Part shown: positions 2,524 to 34,719 of the stretch, piece by piece
How positions within the stretch are numbered: the stretch's first letter is position 1
Layout: every line of letters begins with the position of its first letter
Assembly: GCF_026210795.1 (NCBI RefSeq)
Contig: NC_089452.1
Location: 2,108,001 to 2,172,000 of the forward strand
Direction: 5' to 3'
DNA from: Rhizophagus irregularis
Lineage: Eukaryota; Glomeromycota; Glomeromycetes; Glomerales; Glomeraceae
DNA: 64,000 nt
Translations under genes and position numbers: made by a program
The notes under the pieces: generated by a model
What the model saw: only the letters and a program-made list of their open reading frames with translations
The model's database searches: none
Told to the model about the DNA's origin: nothing

Positions 2524-5500
2524 TTACATACCTAATGGCTTCATATCTTCAATTATACAATCATTCAAATCTTCACTTAGTGGCATTTCATTTGCTTTTA
2601 CACTAGCTTGTGAATCTTCATTTTCAAGTATTTCATTCAACTTTTTACTAGTATTTTCATCTATAATTAAGTAAATAAATTAATTTCACATATACAATTT
2701 GCAAGATTAATTTTTTATATATTATAGTACATACCAAATGACCTTGGATCTCTAATTATGAAGTTATTCAAATCTTCACTTTCAAGAATTTCATTCAATT
2801 CTTTACTATTAAAATCAAGTAAACGACTCGCATAACATGCTTTAGGATGAGATTTAGTAACAAGATTGTTATGCCGCCTAATTGGTGCATTTATAAATTC
2901 CATAATGTTGCTTTTTAATTCTTCACTGACACTATAAGGACGGAAAATCCATTTTTTAATAATTTTTAATACTTCTATAGAAACTGGTCTTTTTAATGGA
3001 TCTTCATTCCAACATTTTTTCATTAAATCTACATAACATTGTGGAGTATTTTCAATAATTTCAGGTCGTTCACCTTTAGAGATACTTAAACTAAGTTGAA
3101 AATCATGCGCTCTATTATTAAATGGTGGTATTCCAGATGTAAACTCCCACATAATCATAGAAAAACTATATATATCACTAGCTGGAGTATAAGGTTTGCC
3201 TCTTAAAACTTCAGGAGCCATAAATGGTATAACACCATAAATATCATACTTTTTCAAAAACGATTTTACAGGTTGACATAATCCTAAATCACTAATATAA
3301 ATTTTATCACTATCCCCATCATAAACATGATTTAAAATATTACCATCATGAAAATCACAATGAATAAGTTTTTCTCCATGTATCTTACTAAGTCCAGAAA
3401 TAATTTCGTACAACATATGTAACTTTTGATTCCAATTATTTTTGACTATTCTTGTTAAATTTTCTCTTAAATTACCTTTATTTGCATAATCCATTACTAC
3501 CATATATTTTGATGTATTTGGATCTTCTGTGAATCCATAAAATAATATAATATTATTTGAACTTAAACACTTTTCATGATATTTCCACTATAAAAAATAA
3601 TAATAATTATTAATATAAATAAATTTTAATTTAAATTAAAAATAGAAAATAATATATTATCATACTTCTTCTAAAAATTTATTCAAATTTTCATCTAAAT
3701 TCTTGTGACATTTAAGAATTACTTCTTTATCTCTATTATTCTTTAACCAAATAGCTTTGTATATAGTACCAAATCCTCCTTCATTAAGATACTCAACATT
3801 TTTAAATTTGTTATAAGGAATCCATTTTAATCTATTTTTAAGAATAAAATCATCTATAATGGCATTTCCACTTTTTCCAAATCTATAAATTTAAATAATT
3901 AAAATTATATAATAGATTGTATTATAATTTATATATACAAAATAAATTATTACTTACTCTAAAATTTAAATAGGAATTTAATGCAATATGAGTCTTGATT
4001 TTTAGATAAATACATATAATAACCTATGATTTACAACTTACCAACTAAGTAACAGATATTTTTTAAATGAAAGAATTTGGTTAACAAATAAATATTATAA
4101 AATATATAACAATAGAGATACTTACAAGCTAGATCATAAATAATTTTTTAAAATAAAAAAATTAGTTAGTTTAAATTATATGTAAATATTATAATAGAAT
4201 TAAATAAATAACTTACAAGCTATATTATTTAATAATTTTTTAAATAAAGAAATTAGTTAAATTATATGTAAATATTATAACAATAAGTAATAATAGAATT
4301 AAATAAACAACTTATAACTTACGATCTATTAAATAAAAAAATTAGTTAGTTTAAATTATATGTAAATATTATAAAAATAAGTAATAATAGAATTAAATAA
4401 ATAACTTACCTATGAAATAATTTTTTAAATAAAGAAATTAGGTTAGTTTAGTTTAAATTATATGTAAATATTATAACAATAAGTAATAATAGAATTAAAT
4501 AAATAACTTACCCCCTATATTATTTAATAATTTTTTAAGTAAAGAAATTAGTTAGTTTAAATTATATGTAAATATTATAACAATAAGTAATAATAGAATT
4601 AAATAAATAACTTACACCCTAGTTAGTTTAAATTATATGTAAATATTATAAAAATAAGTAATAATAGAATTAAATAAATAACTTACGAGCTATATTATTT
4701 AATAATTTTTAAATAAAGAAATTAGTTAGTTTAAATTATATGTAAATATTATAACAATAAGTAATAATAGAATTAAATAAATAACTTACGAGCTATATTA
4801 TTTAATAATTTTTTAAATAAAGAAATTGGTTAGTTTAAATTATGTAAATATTATAACAATAAGTAAAATAATAGAATTAAATAAATAACTTACACACTTT
4901 ATTATTTATTAATTTTTTAAATAAAGAAATTAGTTAGTTTAAATTATATGTAAATATTATAACAATAAGTAATAATAGAATTAAATAAATAACTTACTCC
5001 CTATATTATTTAATAATTTTTTAAATAATGAAATTAGTTAGTTTAAATTACTATATGTAAATATTATAACAATAAGTAATAATGAATTAAATAAATAACT
5101 TACCATCTATGAAATAATTTTTTAAATAAAGAAATTAGTTAGTTTAAATTATATGTAAATATAATTAAATAAATAACTTATGGCTTACCAACTAAAATAA
5201 ATTACAAAATAATTTTTTAAATAAAGAAATTAGTTAGTTTAAATTATATGTAAATATTATAACAATTAGTAATAATAAAATTAAATAAATAACTTACGAG
5301 CTATATTATTTAATAATTTTTTAAATAAAGAAATTAGTTAGTTTAAATTATATGTAAATATTATAACAATAACAGATAAGTAATAATAGAATTAAATAAA
5401 AAACTTACCATCTATGAAATAATTTTTAAATGAAGAAATTAGTTAGTTTAAATTATATGTAAATATTATAACAATATGTAATAATAAAATTTAATAATTA

Positions 5501-8500
5501 ACTAATGACTTACCAACTAAAATAAATTACAAAATAATTTTTTAAATAAAGAAATTAGTTAGTTTAAATTATATGTAAATATTATAAAAATAAGTAATAA
5601 TAGAATTAAATAAATAACTTACATTCTATATTATTTAATAATTTTTTAAATAAAGAAATTAGTTAGTTTAAATTATATATAAATATTATAACAATAAGAA
5701 ATAATAGAATTATATAACTTACGATCTATTAAATAAAATTATTAGTTAGTTTAAATTATATGTAAATATTATAACAATAAGTAATAATAGAATTAAATAA
5801 ATAACTTACACCCTATATTATTTAATAATTTTTAAATAAAACAATTAGTTATTTTAAATTAGGAATATGTTTTTTTTCACAACTGCGATATGTCGCGTCT
5901 CCCTTTTTTGGTAATTTTTTATATTAATTGTCAATCATTCTTATCACATGACTTCGTCAAGATTTCCCATTTTTAAAAAATCCTGGCGTGAGACCAGTGT
6001 TAATTTTTCGATAAAAAGTTACTGTGCGGATGGCGCACAATTTGTTGTGCGTCAAAGTGGTATGGCTATACTACTATAATAGGTACTGTAATACATATGC
6101 GCCCAATCACATAAGGATATTTCAAAATTTTTTGTGCGCATGCCGCACATCCTTTCTAAAAAAGGTGTGCGCAAAATTCTGATCATGTGCGCTGCGAACA
6201 TGCCGCACAGTGAAAAATAAACACTGCGTGAGACCTTATGCACTTACTATGTACTATAAGAAACCTTATACTATGCGTATTTTTGACCTCTCTACAAGTT
6301 TTCTTAATATATCAAAAAGGATTAAGAATGTCATTTTTGATATTTATATGTAACATATTATAGGGGTGCGACATAACGCAGGTGCAATAAAAAGCAAAAC
6401 CCTTTAAATATTATAACAATAAGTAATAATAGAATTAAATAAATAACTTACGAGCTATATTATTTAATAATTTAAATAAAGAAATTAGTTAGTTCAAATT
6501 ATATGTAAATATTATGACAATAAGTAATAATAGAATTAAATAAATAACTATAACTTACAATCTATTAAATAAAGAAATTAGTTAGTTCAAATTATACGTA
6601 AATATTATAACAATAATTAATAATAAAATTGAATAAATAACTTACGAGCTATATTATTTAATAATTTTTAATGAAATTAGTTAGTTTAAATTATATGTAA
6701 ATATTATAACAATAATAATAGAATTAAATAAAAAACTTACCATCTATGAAGTAATTTTTGAATGAAGAAATTAGTTATTTAAATTATATGTAAATATTAT
6801 AACAATAAGTAATAATAAAATTAAATAAATAACAAATGACTTACTAACTAAAATAAATCACAAAATAATTTATTAAATAAAGAAATTAGTTGGTTTAAAT
6901 TATATGTAAATATTATAACAATAAGTAAAATAATAGAATTAAATAAATAACTTACATCCTATATTATTTATTAATTTTTTAAATAAAGAATTGGTTAGTT
7001 TAAATTATATGTAAATATTATAATAATAAGTAATAATAGAATTAAATAAATACTTACCCCCTTATTTAATAATTTTTTAAATAAAGAAATTAGTTAGTTT
7101 AATTATATGTAAAGATTATAACAATAAGTAATAATAGAATTAAATAAATAACTTACACGCTATATTATTTATTAATTTTTTAAATAAACAAATTAGTTAG
7201 TTTAAATTATATGTAAATATTATAACAATAAGTAATAATAGAATTAAATAAATAACTTACTCCCTATATTATTCAATAATTTTTAAATAAAGTGATTAGT
7301 TAGTTTAAATTATATAATAATAAGTAATAATAGAATTAAATAAATAACTTATAACTTACAATCTATTAAATAAATAAAGAAATTAGATAGTTAAATTAAA
7401 TGTAAATATTATAACAATAAGTAATAATAGAATTGAATAAATAACTTACCAACTATTAAATAAATAAAGAAATTAGATAGTTTAAATTATATGTAAATAT
7501 TATAACAATAAGTAATAATAGAATTAAATAAATAACTTACCATCTATAATATTTAATAATTTTTTAAATAAACAAATTAGTTAGTTTAAATTATATGTAA
7601 ATATTATAACAATAAGTAATAATAGAATTAAATAAATAACTTACTCCCTATATTATTTATTAATTTTTTAAATAAAGAAATTAGTTAGTTTAAAATATAT
7701 GTGAATATTATAACATGAGTAATATATAATAGAATTAAATAATTACTTACCATCTATGAAATAATTTTTTAATAAAGAAATTAGTTAGTTTACATTATAA
7801 TAACAATAAGTAATAATAGAATTAAATAAATAATTTACCATCTATGAAATAATTTTTATAAATAAAGAAATTAGTTAGTTTAAATTATATGTAAATATTA
7901 TAACAATAAGTAATAATAGAATTAAATAAATAACTTACTCCCTATATTATTTAATAACTTATTAAATAAAGAAATTATATAAGTAATATAAATATAGATA
8001 TCATAATAACTTACACCCTGTAGTATTATTTAATTATTAATTAGTTAGATATAAAGATAATATAAAGTATTTACTGTAAATTATATATATTACTTACAAT
8101 CTAGTTATTTAAATTAAGAATATGATTAGTTGAATTATGTAAATATTAAATAAATAAATATATACATATTGTAACTTACCATCTGTAATATAATTTTTAT
8201 TAAATAGTTATTTAAATAAAGAATTTAGTTATTTGAATTTTATATAAAATAAATAAAATAAAAAACTAAAGATTTCAATAACTGATAACTTACCAACTAC
8301 AGTATTATTAATCATTAAATAAATTATTTAGTTATATGGAATACAATAAAAATAATAAGTATTTGAATAGATAGTATTTGAATTGTTTATAAATAAAAGT
8401 TTAATATTTCAGCCTTTTTTATATACCTTTAGATTCCTCAGTGTCACTTCCCTCAAATTCTCCTCCACTTTCTTCAAATTCTTCTATATTACTGGAAACT

Positions 8501-9321: not shown

Positions 9322-9835
9322 CTAGTTTTATTATATTGCAAGTTTGTTTTAAAATTTTGAATAATTCTAATTTATATTATTATTCATATTATATGCTTTA
9401 CCTTTTACAATTAGGGAGAATTTTGATATAGTAATGGGCCAATGTATTGGTAAAGATAAAGCAAATATCTTTTTTTCTTTTTATTTATTATTATTAAACG
9501 CTTTTATTAGTATGAATAAATGTGATAACAATATTAATGCAAAATGCATTAATGTGCAAAGGCGTTGATCACAAGTACATGCATTTTAATAAATAAATAA
9601 ATTTAGAGCTCCGAACGGGTCAGGTCAGGTCGGGTAATTGACTTGACCCGACAGAGGTGGGACATAAATTGATGACCCGACCCGAATATCACGGATTGTG
9701 TCAGCCTATTTTTTTACATTTATAATTTTGTATAATTTTTTTTCATTTATTAGATTATTCTAATGATGGCGTGAGTGGCGTGAGTTATATTTCAAGCATC
9801 GTAAAAATGTAAATAAAAAAATAAACCAAAAAAAA
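9322..9835. other. Kinase upstream region with GC-rich repeat islet
   Basis: A minus-strand frame near 9470-9410 ends in AAAAG followed by GTAAAGC at 9403, the same donor as in the duplicated exons, so an additional upstream exon is possible. At 9605-9710 a GC-rich islet carries CGGGTCAGGTCGGGT and its complement GACCCGACCCGAA. It starts with AGAGCTCCG, as does the islet at 27225, and is probably a short transposon remnant. Confidence 0.4.
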
Positions 9836-29455: not shown

Positions 29456-32400
29456 GAAGAATTTGATATATTAATGGATCATAAAGGTAATCATACAACA
29501 TAAATATATAATATAGAATTACATCAAAATTTTTAAACCATTTTGCAAATATAAACTAACTATATTATATATAAAAATTATATTAAATATTTTAGCCCGT
29601 AAGTTAATAGGTTATCTTATAATTAAATAAAATTAAATAATACTAGTAAAATTAATTATTATTTTCATTATATTCTGTGTAATTAAATAATTTATTTAAT
29701 GATTAATAATACTATAGTTTGTAAGTTATCAGTTATTTAAATTTTTAGGTTTTTACTATTTATTTTACGTAATATTCAAATATCTAAATTCTTTGTTTAA
29801 ATAACTAATTAATTATATTACAGCTGGTAAGTTATAATACTTAAGAATGTTATATTTAATATTATACTTATTTATTAATATTTTAATATAATTTAACTAA
29901 TTATATTCTTAATTTAAATAAATAGATTGTAAGTAATCTATTCAATTTATAGTGAATATCTTTCTATTATATTTATATTTAACTAATTAAAAATTAATAA
30001 TAATTCAGGGTGTAAGTTATATGATGTCTATATTTCTATTGTTATACAATTTAAGCTAACTAAGTTTCTTTATTTAAAAAATTATTTTATAGATGGTACG
30101 TTATTTATTTAATTCTATTATTACTTATCGTTATAATATTTACATATAATTTAAACTAACTAATTTCTTTATTTAAAAAATTATTTAAATAATATAGGGA
30201 GTAAGTTATTTATTTAATTCTATTATTACTTATTGTTATAATATTTATATATAATTTAAATTAATTAAATTTCTTTATTTAAAAAATTATTTAAATAATA
30301 TAGTTCGTAAGTTATTTATTTAATTCTATTATTACTTAGTGTTCATATAATTTAAACTAACTAAATTTCTTTATTTAAAAAATTATTTAAATAATATAGT
30401 TCGTAAGTTATTTATTTAATTCTATTATTACTTAGTGTTCATATAATTTAAACTAACTAAATTTCTTTATTTAAAAAATTATTAAATAATATAGGGAGTA
30501 AGTTATTTATTTAGTTCTATTATTACTTATTGTTATAATAATTTAAATTAACTAAATTTCTTTATTAAAAAAATTATTTAAATAATATAGGGAGTAAGTT
30601 ATTTATTTAATTCTATTATTACTTATTGCTATAATATTTACATATAATTTAAACTAACTAAATTTCTTTATTTAAAAATTATTTAAATAATATAGGAAGT
30701 AAGTTATTTAATTCTATTATTACTTATTGTTATATATTTACATATAATTTAAACTAACTAAATTTCTTTATTTAAAAATTATTTTGTAATTTCTTTTAGT
30801 TGGTAAGTTATAAGTATTTATTTAATTCTATTATTACTTTATTTACATATAATTTAAACTACTAACTAAATTTCTTTATTTAAAAAATTATTTAAATAAT
30901 ATAGGGAGTAAGTTATTTATTTAATTCTATTATAACTTATAGTCATAATATTTATATATAATTTAATTTAACTAAATTTCTTTATTTAAAAAATTATTTT
31001 ATAGGTGGTATGTTATTTATTTAATTCTATTATTACTTATTGTTATAATATTTACATATAATTTAAACTAACTATTTAAAAAATTATTTAAATAATATAG
31101 GGAGTAAGTTATTTACTTAATTATATTATTACTTATTGTTATAATATTTATATATAATTTAAATTAACTAAATTTCTTTATTTAATAGATTGTAAGTCAT
31201 AAGTTATTTATTTAATTCTATTATTACTTATTGTTATAATATTTACATATAATTTAAATTAACTAAATTTCTTTATTTAAAAAATTATTTAAATAATATA
31301 GGGAGTAAGTTATTTATTTAATTTTATTATTACTTATTGTTATAATATTTACATATAATTTAAACTAACTAAATTTCTTTATTTAAAAAATTATTTAAAT
31401 AATATAGTTCGTAAGTATTTATTTAATTCTACTATTACTTATTGTTACAATATTTACATATAATTTAAACTAACTAAATTTCTTTATTTAAAATATTATT
31501 TAAATAATATAGGGAGTAAGTTATTTATTTAATTCTATTATTACTTATTGTTTTACATTTAATTTAAACTAGTAACTAAATTTCTTTATTCAAAAAATTA
31601 TTTTGTAATTTCTTTTAGTTGGTAAGTCATAAGTTATTTATTATTACTTATTGTTATAATATTTACATATAATTTAAACTAACTAAATTTTTTTATTTAA
31701 AAATTTATTTTATAGATGGTATGTTATTTATTTAATTCTATTATTACTTATTGTTATAATATTTACATATAATTTAAATTAACTAAATTTCTTTATTTGA
31801 AAAATTATAGATGGTACGTTATTTATTTAATTCTATTATTACTTATTGTTATAATATATTTACATATAATTTAAACTAACTAAATTTCTTTATTTAAAAA
31901 ATTATTTAAATAATATAGGGAGTAAGTTACTTATTTAATTCTATTATTACTTATTGTTATAATATTTACATATAATTTAAACTAACTAAATTTCTTTATT
32001 TAAAATATTATTTAAATAATATAGGGAGTAAGTTATTTATTTAATTCTATTATTACTTATTGTTATAATATTTACATATAATTTAAACTAACTAAATTTA
32101 TTTAAAAAATTATTTTATAGATGGTACGTTATTTATTTAATTCTATTATTAGTACTTATTGTTATAATATTAACATATAATTAAACTAACTAACTTTCTT
32201 TATTTAAAAAATTATTTTATAGATGGTACGTTATTTATTTAATTCTATTATTACTTATCTGTTATTGTTATAATATATAATTTAATTTAACTAAATTTCT
32301 TTATTTAAAAAATTATTTTATAGATAGTACATTATTTATTTAATTCTATTATTACTTATTGTTATAATATTTACATATAATTTAAATTAACTAAATTTCT

Positions 32401-34719
32401 TTATTTAAAAAATTATTTAAATAATATAGGAAGTAAGTTATTTATTTAATTCTATTATTATTTATTGTTATAATATTACATATAATTTAAACTAACTAAA
32501 TTTCTTTATTTAAAATAATATAGGGAGTAAGTTATTTATTTAATTCTATTATTACTTACTGTTACAATATTTACATATAATTTAAACTAACTAAATTTCT
32601 TTATTTAAAAAATTATTTAAATAATATAGGGAGTAAGTTATTTATTTAATTCTATTATAACTTATTGTTCATATAATTTAAACTAACTAAATTTCTTTAA
32701 TTAAAAAATTATTTAAATAATATAGGAAGTAAGTTATTTATTTAATTCTATTATTACTTATTGTTATAATATTACATATAATTTAAACTAACTACATTTC
32801 TTTATTTAAAAATTATTTTATAGATAGTACGTTATTTATTTAATTTATTATGGATAAATCTAATTGTAACAGCCTGTTACGCGTCTTATTTGTAACAACC
32901 CTCAATTTTATCCAATTAAAATTTAAGATCAGGCGTAATGTAAACAAAAGATCAGTCGTGTAACTAAGACAAAAGAATTTTTTAAAAAATTTCAAGAAAT
33001 TGCTTATAACTTAAAATTTTGTCTATGAAACTTTCTTAAGTACATTAAGTAAAAGTTTTCCAAATTAAATTTTGCATATAAAAACTTTATTTGTAAAACA
33101 CATACTAAATTTATTATTAAAAAAAAAATAAAAAAAGGATGTTACAAATAAGATATGTAACAGGCTGTTACAAATACATTTATTCTTTTATTATTACTTA
33201 TTGTTATAATATTTACATATAATTTAAACTAACTAAAATCTTTATTTAAAAAATTATTTAAATAATATAGCTTGTAAGTTATTTATTATTTCTATTGTTA
33301 TATATTTATTAAATATTTATTTGCTAACTGTATTCTTTTATTCTAAAATTTCTATTACTTTAGTTGGTAAGTTATGAAATATAGCTTATTAGCATTATAT
33401 ATATTTATACAAAAACTAAGACATATATTATCTTAAATTCCTATTTAAATTTAAGAGTAAGTGTTAATTTTTTAGTGTAAATTTTATTATAAACTTTTAT
33501 ATAATTTTAATTATTTAAATTTATAGATTTGGACAAAGTGGAAACAAAATCATAGATGAATTTATTCTCGAAAAAGAGTTAAAATGGATTCCTTATGATA
33601 AATTTAAAAATGTTGAATATCTTAATAAAGGAGGATGTGGTACTATATACAAAGCTATTTGGCCAAATAATGATGGAGATAGAGAAGTAATTCTTAAATG
33701 TCATAATAATTTAAATGAAAATTTAAATGAATTTTTAAATGAAGTATGATAGTATATTATTATTTTTTTAATTTAAATTATAATTTACTTATATTAATAT
33801 ATTAATATTTTTTTAGTGGAAATATCATGAAAGTTGTTTAGGTTCATATGAAATTATTTATTTTTATGGATTTACAAAAAATCCAGATACTTTGAAATAT
33901 ATGGCAGTAATGGATTATGCAAACAAAGGTAATTTAAGAGGAAACTTAACAAGAATAATCAAAAGTGGTTGGAGTCAAAAATTATGCATGTTGTATGAAA
34001 TTATTTCTGGACTTAAAAATATACATAATCAAAATCTTATTCATCATGATTTTCATGATGGCAATATTTTAAATCATGGTGAGAATAAGATTTATATTAG
34101 TGATTTAGGATTATGTCAACCTGTAAAATCATTATTGAAAGAACATAATATTTATGGTGTTGTACCATTTATGGCACCTGAAGTATTGAGAGGCAAACCT
34201 TATACTCCAGCTAGTGATATATATAGTTTTTCTATGATTATGTGGGAATTTACATCTGGAATACCACCATTTAATGATAGAGCACATGATATTCAACTTA
34301 GTTTAAGTATTTGTGAAGGTGAACGTCCTGAAATTATTGAGACTACTCCACAATGCTATGTTGATTTGATGAAAAAATGTTGGGATGAAGATCCATTAAA
34401 AAGGCCATCTTCTAAGGAAGTTTCAAAAATTTTTAATGAATGGATTTCTCTTCCTTATGATAAAAAAATTGAAGACATTAATGAAGAATTAAAATGCAAT
34501 ATTATGGAATTTATAAATTCACCAATTGGGCATAACAATCTTACTACTGAATCTCACTCACAGGCTTACTGTACAAGTCGCTTACTTAATTTTACTAGTA
34601 AACAATTGAATGAAATTCTTGAAAGTAAAAATTCACAAACTAGTGTACAAGTAAGTGAAATGTTAGTAAGCAAAAATTTGAATGAATGTATGCTTGATTT
34701 GAAGAAATTAGGTATGTAA
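29456..34719 (+). CDS. Protein kinase gene with a single-codon exon array (plus-strand paralogue)
   Basis: Exon 29456-29486 (31 nt, reading EEFDILMDHK and ending in phase 1) is followed by 35 three-base exons, a one-base exon A at 33456, then 33527-33743 and 33817-34719. The kinase domain shows NKGGCGTIYKA, Lys in EVILK, HHDFHDGN, DLG and APE, so catalytic residues are kept. The loop has Cys for the usual Phe. The C-terminal tail repeats LNEILESKN/LNECMLD-like words. The stop is TAA 34717, or splicing continues from GTATGT at 34712. It is about 80% similar by eye to the minus-strand copy and shares its intron positions and phases. The start codon is upstream and not identified. Role: probably a serine/threonine or dual-specificity kinase; partners unknown. 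Confidence 0.75.
29596..33457 (+). repeat. Tandem intron array with 3-nt exons (plus strand)
   Basis: Triplets between AG and GT, by start: CCC 29596, TTT 29718, CTG 29824, ATT 29926, GGT 30009, ATG 30093, GGA 30198, TTC 30304, TTC 30400, GGA 30495, GGA 30591, GAA 30696, TTG 30800, GGA 30905, GTG 31005, GGA 31101, ATT 31189, GGA 31302, TTC 31408, GGA 31513, TTG 31619, ATG 31716, ATG 31811, GGA 31919, GGA 32025, ATG 32121, ATG 32223, ATA 32324, GAA 32430, GGA 32524, GGA 32630, GAA 32726, ATA 32824, CTT 33271, TTG 33364, then single A 33456. Introns carry GTAAGT (or GTACGT, GTATGT, GTACAT), ACTAAC, TTTCTTT and TATAG. The first units are well diverged in body but keep the splice signals and the spacing. 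Confidence 0.85.
32852..33186. mobile_element. MITE inserted in an array intron, TGTAACAGCCTGTTAC ends
   Basis: ATAAATNTANTTGTAACAGCCTGTTAC at the left and its complement at the right form inverted ends of about 45 bp. TTTATTAT flanks both sides (32844-32851 and 33187-33194), an 8-bp duplication, though low in complexity. It sits in the intron between triplets 32824 and 33271 and leaves splice signals intact. Confidence 0.7.

Follow-up and report, generated by a model that had tools for sequence, protein, structure and literature searches.

Arrays of predicted single-codon exons in kinase genes of Rhizophagus irregularis

Introduction

Rhizophagus irregularis is an arbuscular mycorrhizal fungus. 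A stretch of 64,000 nucleotides from its genome (assembly GCF_026210795.1, contig NC_089452.1, positions 2,108,001 to 2,172,000; hereafter the window) contains two kinase paralogues, one on each strand, each accompanied by an array of repeats of about 100 bp in which a triplet lies between a splice acceptor and a splice donor (AG-NNN-GT). The locus on the plus strand raises the question of whether these triplets are exons of a single codon, joined in order and translated, or parts of one large intron. The array is very probably, as judged from sequence, the coding N-terminal part of the kinase gene, in which single-codon exons are joined in order, the introns form a scaffold and a variable segment is produced. 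Tyrosine kinase-like (TKL) genes are reported to be expanded in this fungus (PMC4219462).

Results and Discussion

Architecture and reading frame

The first-pass annotation of the window described 35 AG-NNN-GT triplets on the plus strand over about 3.8 kb, with strict splice signals and a strict spacing of 3 nt. Both statements were confirmed. Each triplet has AG on its 5' side and GTAAGT, or a near variant, on its 3' side, and 34 of the 35 strong donors (GTAAGT, GTACGT or GTATGT) in the stretch 29500-33600 have AG exactly 3 nt upstream. The sole exception is the donor behind a 1-nt exon, and a unit with the donor GTACAT falls outside this count. The same test yielded 36 of 39 donors for the minus-strand array, compared with 0 of 26 GTAAGT sequences on both strands of the rest of the window. 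The triplets run, in order, CCC TTT CTG ATT GGT ATG GGA TTC TTC GGA GGA GAA in the first part, TTG GGA GTG GGA ATT GGA TTC GGA TTG ATG ATG GGA in the middle and GGA ATG ATG ATA GAA GGA GGA GAA ATA CTT TTG in the last. They are separated by 34 introns of 80-444 nt (median 99), of which 21 contain CTAAC at 28-42 nt before the acceptor. The original description was correct as far as it went, but lacked the start exon, the 1-nt exon, the phase and an inserted element of 330 bp (Table 1).

The start exon, which ends on the first base of a codon, has counterparts in several paralogues. The first kinase exon is open only with two bases in front of it. These two bases are supplied when the final base of the start exon is followed by all 35 triplets and by the A of the 1-nt exon, which fits a change from phase 1 to phase 2. 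Joining these exons yields an intact open frame of 412 amino acids, MDHK-ALSDWYGILRRRIGSGNWIRIDDGRNDDRRRRNTFE-FGQSGN.. followed by a protein kinase; the array accounts for about 36 residues and the remainder is kinase and C-terminal tail. A profile search with the spliced protein matched PF07714 (E 5.5e-39) and PF00069 (E 3.5e-35), and the kinase motifs VILK, HHDFHDGN, DLG and APE were read by eye. By resemblance, the kinase would be of the Tyr/Ser-Thr, TKL-like type. Its N-terminus recurs in proteins of R. clarus and R. diaphanus.

A complete model was also built for a further locus of the family, L016. It joins exons of 22, 27 and 123 nt to 33 single-codon exons, the single A and two kinase exons, giving 468 amino acids from 39 exons, open end to end. 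Its three upstream exons and the 13-nt start exon of the window gene both fix phase 1. Products of the same three exons stand at the start of two public proteins of R. irregularis, P0026 and P0027 (MDQCIGK or MDGK, followed by VLGDTKEPE or VLCDTREPE and by VSSN..KESK), so that the 5' exon boundaries of L016 are independently supported. The N-terminus MGQCIGK of L016 resembles a myristoylation and palmitoylation site, and by eye neither this N-terminus nor MDHK.. of the window gene looks like a signal peptide.

Junction codons

With introns in phase 1, a junction codon comprises the last base of one exon and the first two of the next. Such codons were analysed in 28 array genes, for neighbours within 150 nt, and compared with shuffles of the triplets within each gene, the first five being kept in place (n=5000). 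The set of genes was not random: 20 stretches taken from the best DNA matches to the window array gave 18 genes (two pairs being joined), to which both window arrays and eight loci hand-picked from the matches to a signature of the 1-nt exon were added. In the predicted phase 1, none of the 741 junction codons was a stop, where shuffled triplets gave a mean of 15.05 stops (standard deviation 3.09, minimum 4 in 5000). Since duplicated blocks of units lower the effective number, distinct ordered neighbour pairs were also counted, and yielded 0 stops in 290. A looser definition, which admitted 40 more units with weaker donors and 77 more junctions, added no stop (0/818 in total).

Stops did occur between exons that are not adjacent, at 19/659 for distance 2, 23/590 for distance 3 and 19/525 for distance 4, and pairs 2-8 apart were at background level. 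As stops are absent only between neighbours, selection appears to see the peptide that results when all exons are joined in order. This test is the strongest evidence that the exons are joined in order and probably translated. The proposal of single-codon exons in a kinase paralogue, made in the first-pass annotation, is thereby favoured, with the amendment that the codon straddles two exons and is not the triplet as written.

The other two phases were also considered. Phase 2 was ruled out by stops at 118 of 741 junctions. In phase 0, where each triplet is a whole codon, the array does not fit the flanking exons and no neighbour test is possible; the triplets read in this way are nearly free of stops as well (3/741). 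This last count weighs against the argument, because a scarcity of stops does not by itself single out phase 1; that phase is singled out by the neighbour effect together with the flanking exons. A chance origin of the pattern was ruled out by the control in the rest of the window and by the shuffles, and assembly error is unlikely, the same design being present in every array locus read.

Across the 28 genes, 803 of 813 GTAAGT donors have AG exactly 3 nt upstream, and the 10 exceptions show a spacing of 0, 2, 4, 6 or 7 nt. The finding of units required AG-N3-GT and the donor pattern, so that the invariance of AG and GT within units is built in. Read in this manner, the arrays appear to be runs of very small, symmetric phase-1 exons within coding sequence.

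An alternative is that the exons are real and used combinatorially, variable skipping giving many peptides per gene, as has been proposed for schistosome micro-exon genes (MEGs). Skipped exons of 3 nt keep the frame, and skipping would be cheap, since only about 3-4% of random skips would run into a stop (19/659 and 23/590 above). Yet only neighbours are free of stops and pairs 2-8 apart are not, which indicates that selection acts mainly on the isoform with full inclusion; combinatorial use is accordingly regarded as unlikely.

Less probable still is the view that the array is one large intron composed of an intron-like satellite, with the AG-NNN-GT sites acting as ratchet points or decoys and the triplets never translated. 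It would agree with the tandem repetition of the units, with the public models read, which skip the array, and with a single zero-length exon (AG directly followed by GT, in WINm, the minus-strand array of the window). It does not account for a depletion of stops restricted to neighbours and to the phase predicted by the flanking exons, nor for the conservation of some triplets, here termed framework, beside hypervariable ones in the middle. The frame argues less strongly against it: the frame is lost only if the start exon is joined directly to the kinase exon, and skipping of the array with retention of the 1-nt exon is in frame.

Several observations count against joining of all the exons in order. 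At junctions across gaps of more than 150 nt, one stop was found in 30 (L024L025, gap 183). The strict unit set with gaps included gave 2 stops in 808 (WINm and L024L025), the first count having been 1/611, and chains of units read a stop in L009 and L024L025. Stops across gaps are put down to missed or lost units. Forty-five gaps of 150-260 nt were inspected: in 23 the best remnant retained AG-N3-GT, though with a weaker donor, and in 22 a site was broken or missing. Losing a unit removes a single residue and leaves the frame intact. Duplication of unit blocks means that the triplets are not independent. Exons of 2, 2 and 4 nt in L039 and two of 2 nt in L024L025 break the rule of multiples of three. 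When intron-less copies were sought with one array peptide, only the part from exon 3 was matched, with no match beyond residue 41 of the 89-residue query, and no array peptide was present in the protein matches examined (22/24 and 5/5). The public gene models read omit the array. P0001, the model of the window gene, begins at the inserted element, its start codon (about 32850) lying at the edge of the element and its first exon running from there. P0026 and P0027 read as 5' exons joined to the kinase region past the array; should these junctions be real, there is an isoform that lacks the array. Such a skip, as stated above, can remain in frame.

In three further public proteins of R. irregularis, P0025, P0028 and P0029, unrelated sequence from upstream is joined to the 5' exons of array genes; P0025 is annotated with a MULE transposase domain. 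Residues at their ends fit read-through into the first array intron. These fusions are likely to be annotation errors.

Framework and hypervariable triplets

ATT GGT is present near the start of the array in 26 of the 28 genes, and the last two units are CTT in 21 and TTG in 24. The first framework units encode ..DW (with the start exon, ...A L S D W in the window gene) and the last encode ..F-E-F..SGN. Both arrays of the window share ATT GGT near the start and CTT ... TTG at the end, and to call the plus-strand array independent, as had been done, was too strong; the two are paralogous. The order of triplets in the middle is unrelated between them, as first described. The middle section ranges from 1 unit (L012) to about 65 (L024L025), and comparison shows that the paralogues would carry different peptides between the fixed ..DW and the fixed F-E-F..SGN.

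Between genes, divergence per site in alignments was 0.65 for the middle triplets and 0.078 for their flanks; for framework triplets it was 0-0.37, with 0.10-0.13 for the flanks. Up to 150 pairs were sampled per framework position and 600 for the middle, and the zero divergence of ATT GGT is partly circular, as these triplets were also used to locate the framework. Among 300 units from a single class (the last 10 bases define class A), triplet diversity was 0.62 per site against 0.23 upstream and 0.16 downstream in the intron, the latter values being taken from unaligned bases outside the class definition and the splice sites and inflated by indels. Different triplets were found in 457 of 599 unit pairs whose flanks are identical outside the splice sites. 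The best match of a unit lies in its own gene for 280 of 637 units, compared with 4.3% by chance, and in L052 the run CTG CAT ATG ATC ATC stands twice in succession; units have thus undergone duplication and shuffling. At the third codon position, which is occupied by the middle base of the triplet, 600 of 633 bases are T or G (22 loci), an NNK-like bias.

The diversity of the triplets could also have arisen without diversifying selection, if the intron as a whole is held constant by the special signals that such tiny exons require, the triplet itself being at liberty to be almost any codon. This explanation is compatible with translation of the exons in order and concerns only the cause of the diversity. 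The strong conservation of the intron flanks agrees with it, but framework units work with other introns, which diverge more (0.10-0.13) than those of the middle (0.05-0.08), and triplet divergence reaches 0.41 (same gene) to 0.60 (different genes) at 0-1% intron divergence, a large gap for neutrality alone. It is considered less likely than not. With one genome to compare, either selection or targeted mutation may be the cause.

Distribution in the genome

The first-pass annotation suggested a search for the pattern in other kinase genes of the species, and it was found there. In the genome (146,748,485 bases, 32 contigs), allowing up to 3 mismatches gave 109 matches to the signature of the 1-nt exon (53 + 56), against 2 for a reversed control, and the kinase exon has at least 151 matches. 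The 28 genes hold 836 units, about 30 per gene, and single-codon exons number 8 to 72 in the genes examined; by extrapolation, the whole genome may contain some 3000.

AG-NNN-GT units were present in all 21 further gene loci looked at (L029, L031-L033, L035-L045 and L047-L052), with the 3' part only in L031-L033 and L051 and the 5' part only in L043-L045. The statistics on 28 genes leave aside L029, L031-L033, L043-L045, L047-L051 and L052, and L001-L008, L030, L034 and L046 lie on or next to genes that are in the count already. Five exons of 6 nt occur in the divergent array of L048 (1068-2490), one of which (ATAGCA) can also be read as 2 nt. Other odd lengths are a 2-nt call in L044 and GGAGTA in L045 and L052.

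Features of the window

Coordinates are given in Table 1. In the minus-strand array, a zero-length exon, with AG directly followed by GTAAGT, lies at about 4409. In the same gene the usual first-exon segment (..ATGGGCCAATGTATTGG..) at 9408-9451 is inverted relative to the gene, so that its start codon points the wrong way; relatives such as L016 and L020 differ in having this segment in the forward sense.

Table 1. Predicted features of the array gene and its paralogue, in window coordinates
Feature	Position	Strand	Basis
Start exon ATGGATCATAAAG (MDHK and first base of next codon), phase-1 donor GTAATC	29474..29486 (13 nt)	+	sequence
Single-codon exon array, 35 AG-NNN-GT units	29596..33366	+	sequence
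5' framework single-codon exons: CCC 29596, TTT 29718, CTG 29824, ATT 29926, GGT 30009	29596..30011	+	
28 hypervariable single-codon exons, starts: 30093, 30198, 30304, 30400, 30495, 30591, 30696, 30800, 30905, 31005, 31101, 31189, 31302, 31408, 31513, 31619, 31716, 31811, 31919, 32025, 32121, 32223, 32324, 32430, 32524, 32630, 32726, 32824	30093..32826	+	
Inserted 330-bp element within one array intron, 47-nt inverted arms (87% complementary)	32854..33183	.	
3' framework single-codon exons: CTT 33271, TTG 33364	33271..33366	+	
1-nt exon A (AAG/A/GTAAGT), phase 1 to 2 for kinase exon	33456..33456	+	
Kinase exon 1 (..FGQSGNKIIDEFILEKELKWIPYDKFKNVEYLNKGGCGTIYKAIW..)	33527..33743	+	
Kinase exon 2 to stop codon	33817..34719	+	spliced-protein profile match
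Sister array of first kinase paralogue, 37 units, 1-nt exon at 3958	3958..8296	-	

Proposed mechanism

Each repeat would consist of one intron, with a GTAAGT donor, often a branch point of the CTAAC type and a TAG acceptor, and one exon of 3 nt. The start exon, the single-codon exons, the 1-nt exon and the kinase exons would be spliced into the frame observed. A distance of only 3 nt from one acceptor to the following donor would hardly allow two introns to be handled at once. Stepwise removal is therefore most likely, each step adding a codon and presumably restoring a GTAAGT donor, in analogy to recursive splicing with a payload of 3 nt. For a 1-nt exon, intron definition with recursive, successive removal has been favoured on the same argument of small space (PMC4674806). 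On comparison of the genes, the introns are the homologous scaffold for duplication and, probably, exchange of units, while the triplets stay diverse. As codons straddle the exons, every change of neighbour would alter a residue, with a stop as the price in about 3-4% of cases.

The most likely role of the peptide is that of a variable segment for recognition or tagging, by which each kinase would gain a specificity of its own, although this is the weakest step of the proposal. It is suggested by the presence of such a segment in front of the kinases of one family, in a fungus whose tyrosine kinase-like genes are expanded. A bolder version, which we hold only tentatively, is a dedicated diversity system in which the introns recombine and only the three bases of each exon are rewritten, by a process that is selected or targeted. 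Perhaps a hundred or more kinases would then each bear a private peptide as a code for self/non-self or partner recognition, which the spliceosome would put together one codon at a time.

Comparison with known systems

The exons of MEGs measure about 6-36 nt. Repeats of TAL effectors are homogeneous with hypervariable specificity positions; there the repeat is translated, whereas here it would be the intron that is removed. MEGs share with the present arrays very small symmetric exons and a fast-evolving, variable protein family (PMC4350168). The arrays differ in their three-base exons, near-identical repeat introns, a variable part that heads a kinase and a preference for full inclusion, and micro-exons do not make up most of the coding region as in MEGs (about 36 of 412 residues). 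The bicycle and megacycle genes of aphids likewise have many tiny exons of one phase and evolve rapidly, with more than 100 microexons in megacycle. They are putative effectors with no kinase, and neither single-codon exons nor an intronic repeat scaffold are described in the accessible part of the report (PMC9168663).

Isolated exons of 1 or 3 nt are reported from Arabidopsis APC11, Fusarium CYP621A and Drosophila homothorax, with spliceosomes reported to be able to handle such sizes (PMC4674806, PMC12940212, PMC7392893). In the available text of those reports there is one per gene, as opposed to the runs of 8-72 found here. Recursive splicing places an acceptor beside a donor and removes introns stepwise, as is proposed here, mostly 5' to 3' (PMC6110457). 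Its AGGT ratchet points add no coding bases, whereas three would be added per step in the arrays, where the spacing from acceptor to donor is 3 nt and rarely 0 nt. No described equivalent was found among the matches listed, most subscription journals lying outside the search, and the accessible portion of a paper on long-read annotation (PMC10234402) does not mention the array.

If the reading of the arrays as exons joined in order is true, they would constitute a hypervariable protein region whose DNA repeat is wholly intronic, with a payload of one codon per exon. The scale of the phenomenon, 836 units in 28 genes and a signature in 109 places, was missed by the gene models read. Such arrays would stretch what spliceosomes routinely do and represent a new route to protein diversity. 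For arbuscular mycorrhizal fungi, with their expansion of kinases, they would also provide a candidate recognition system.

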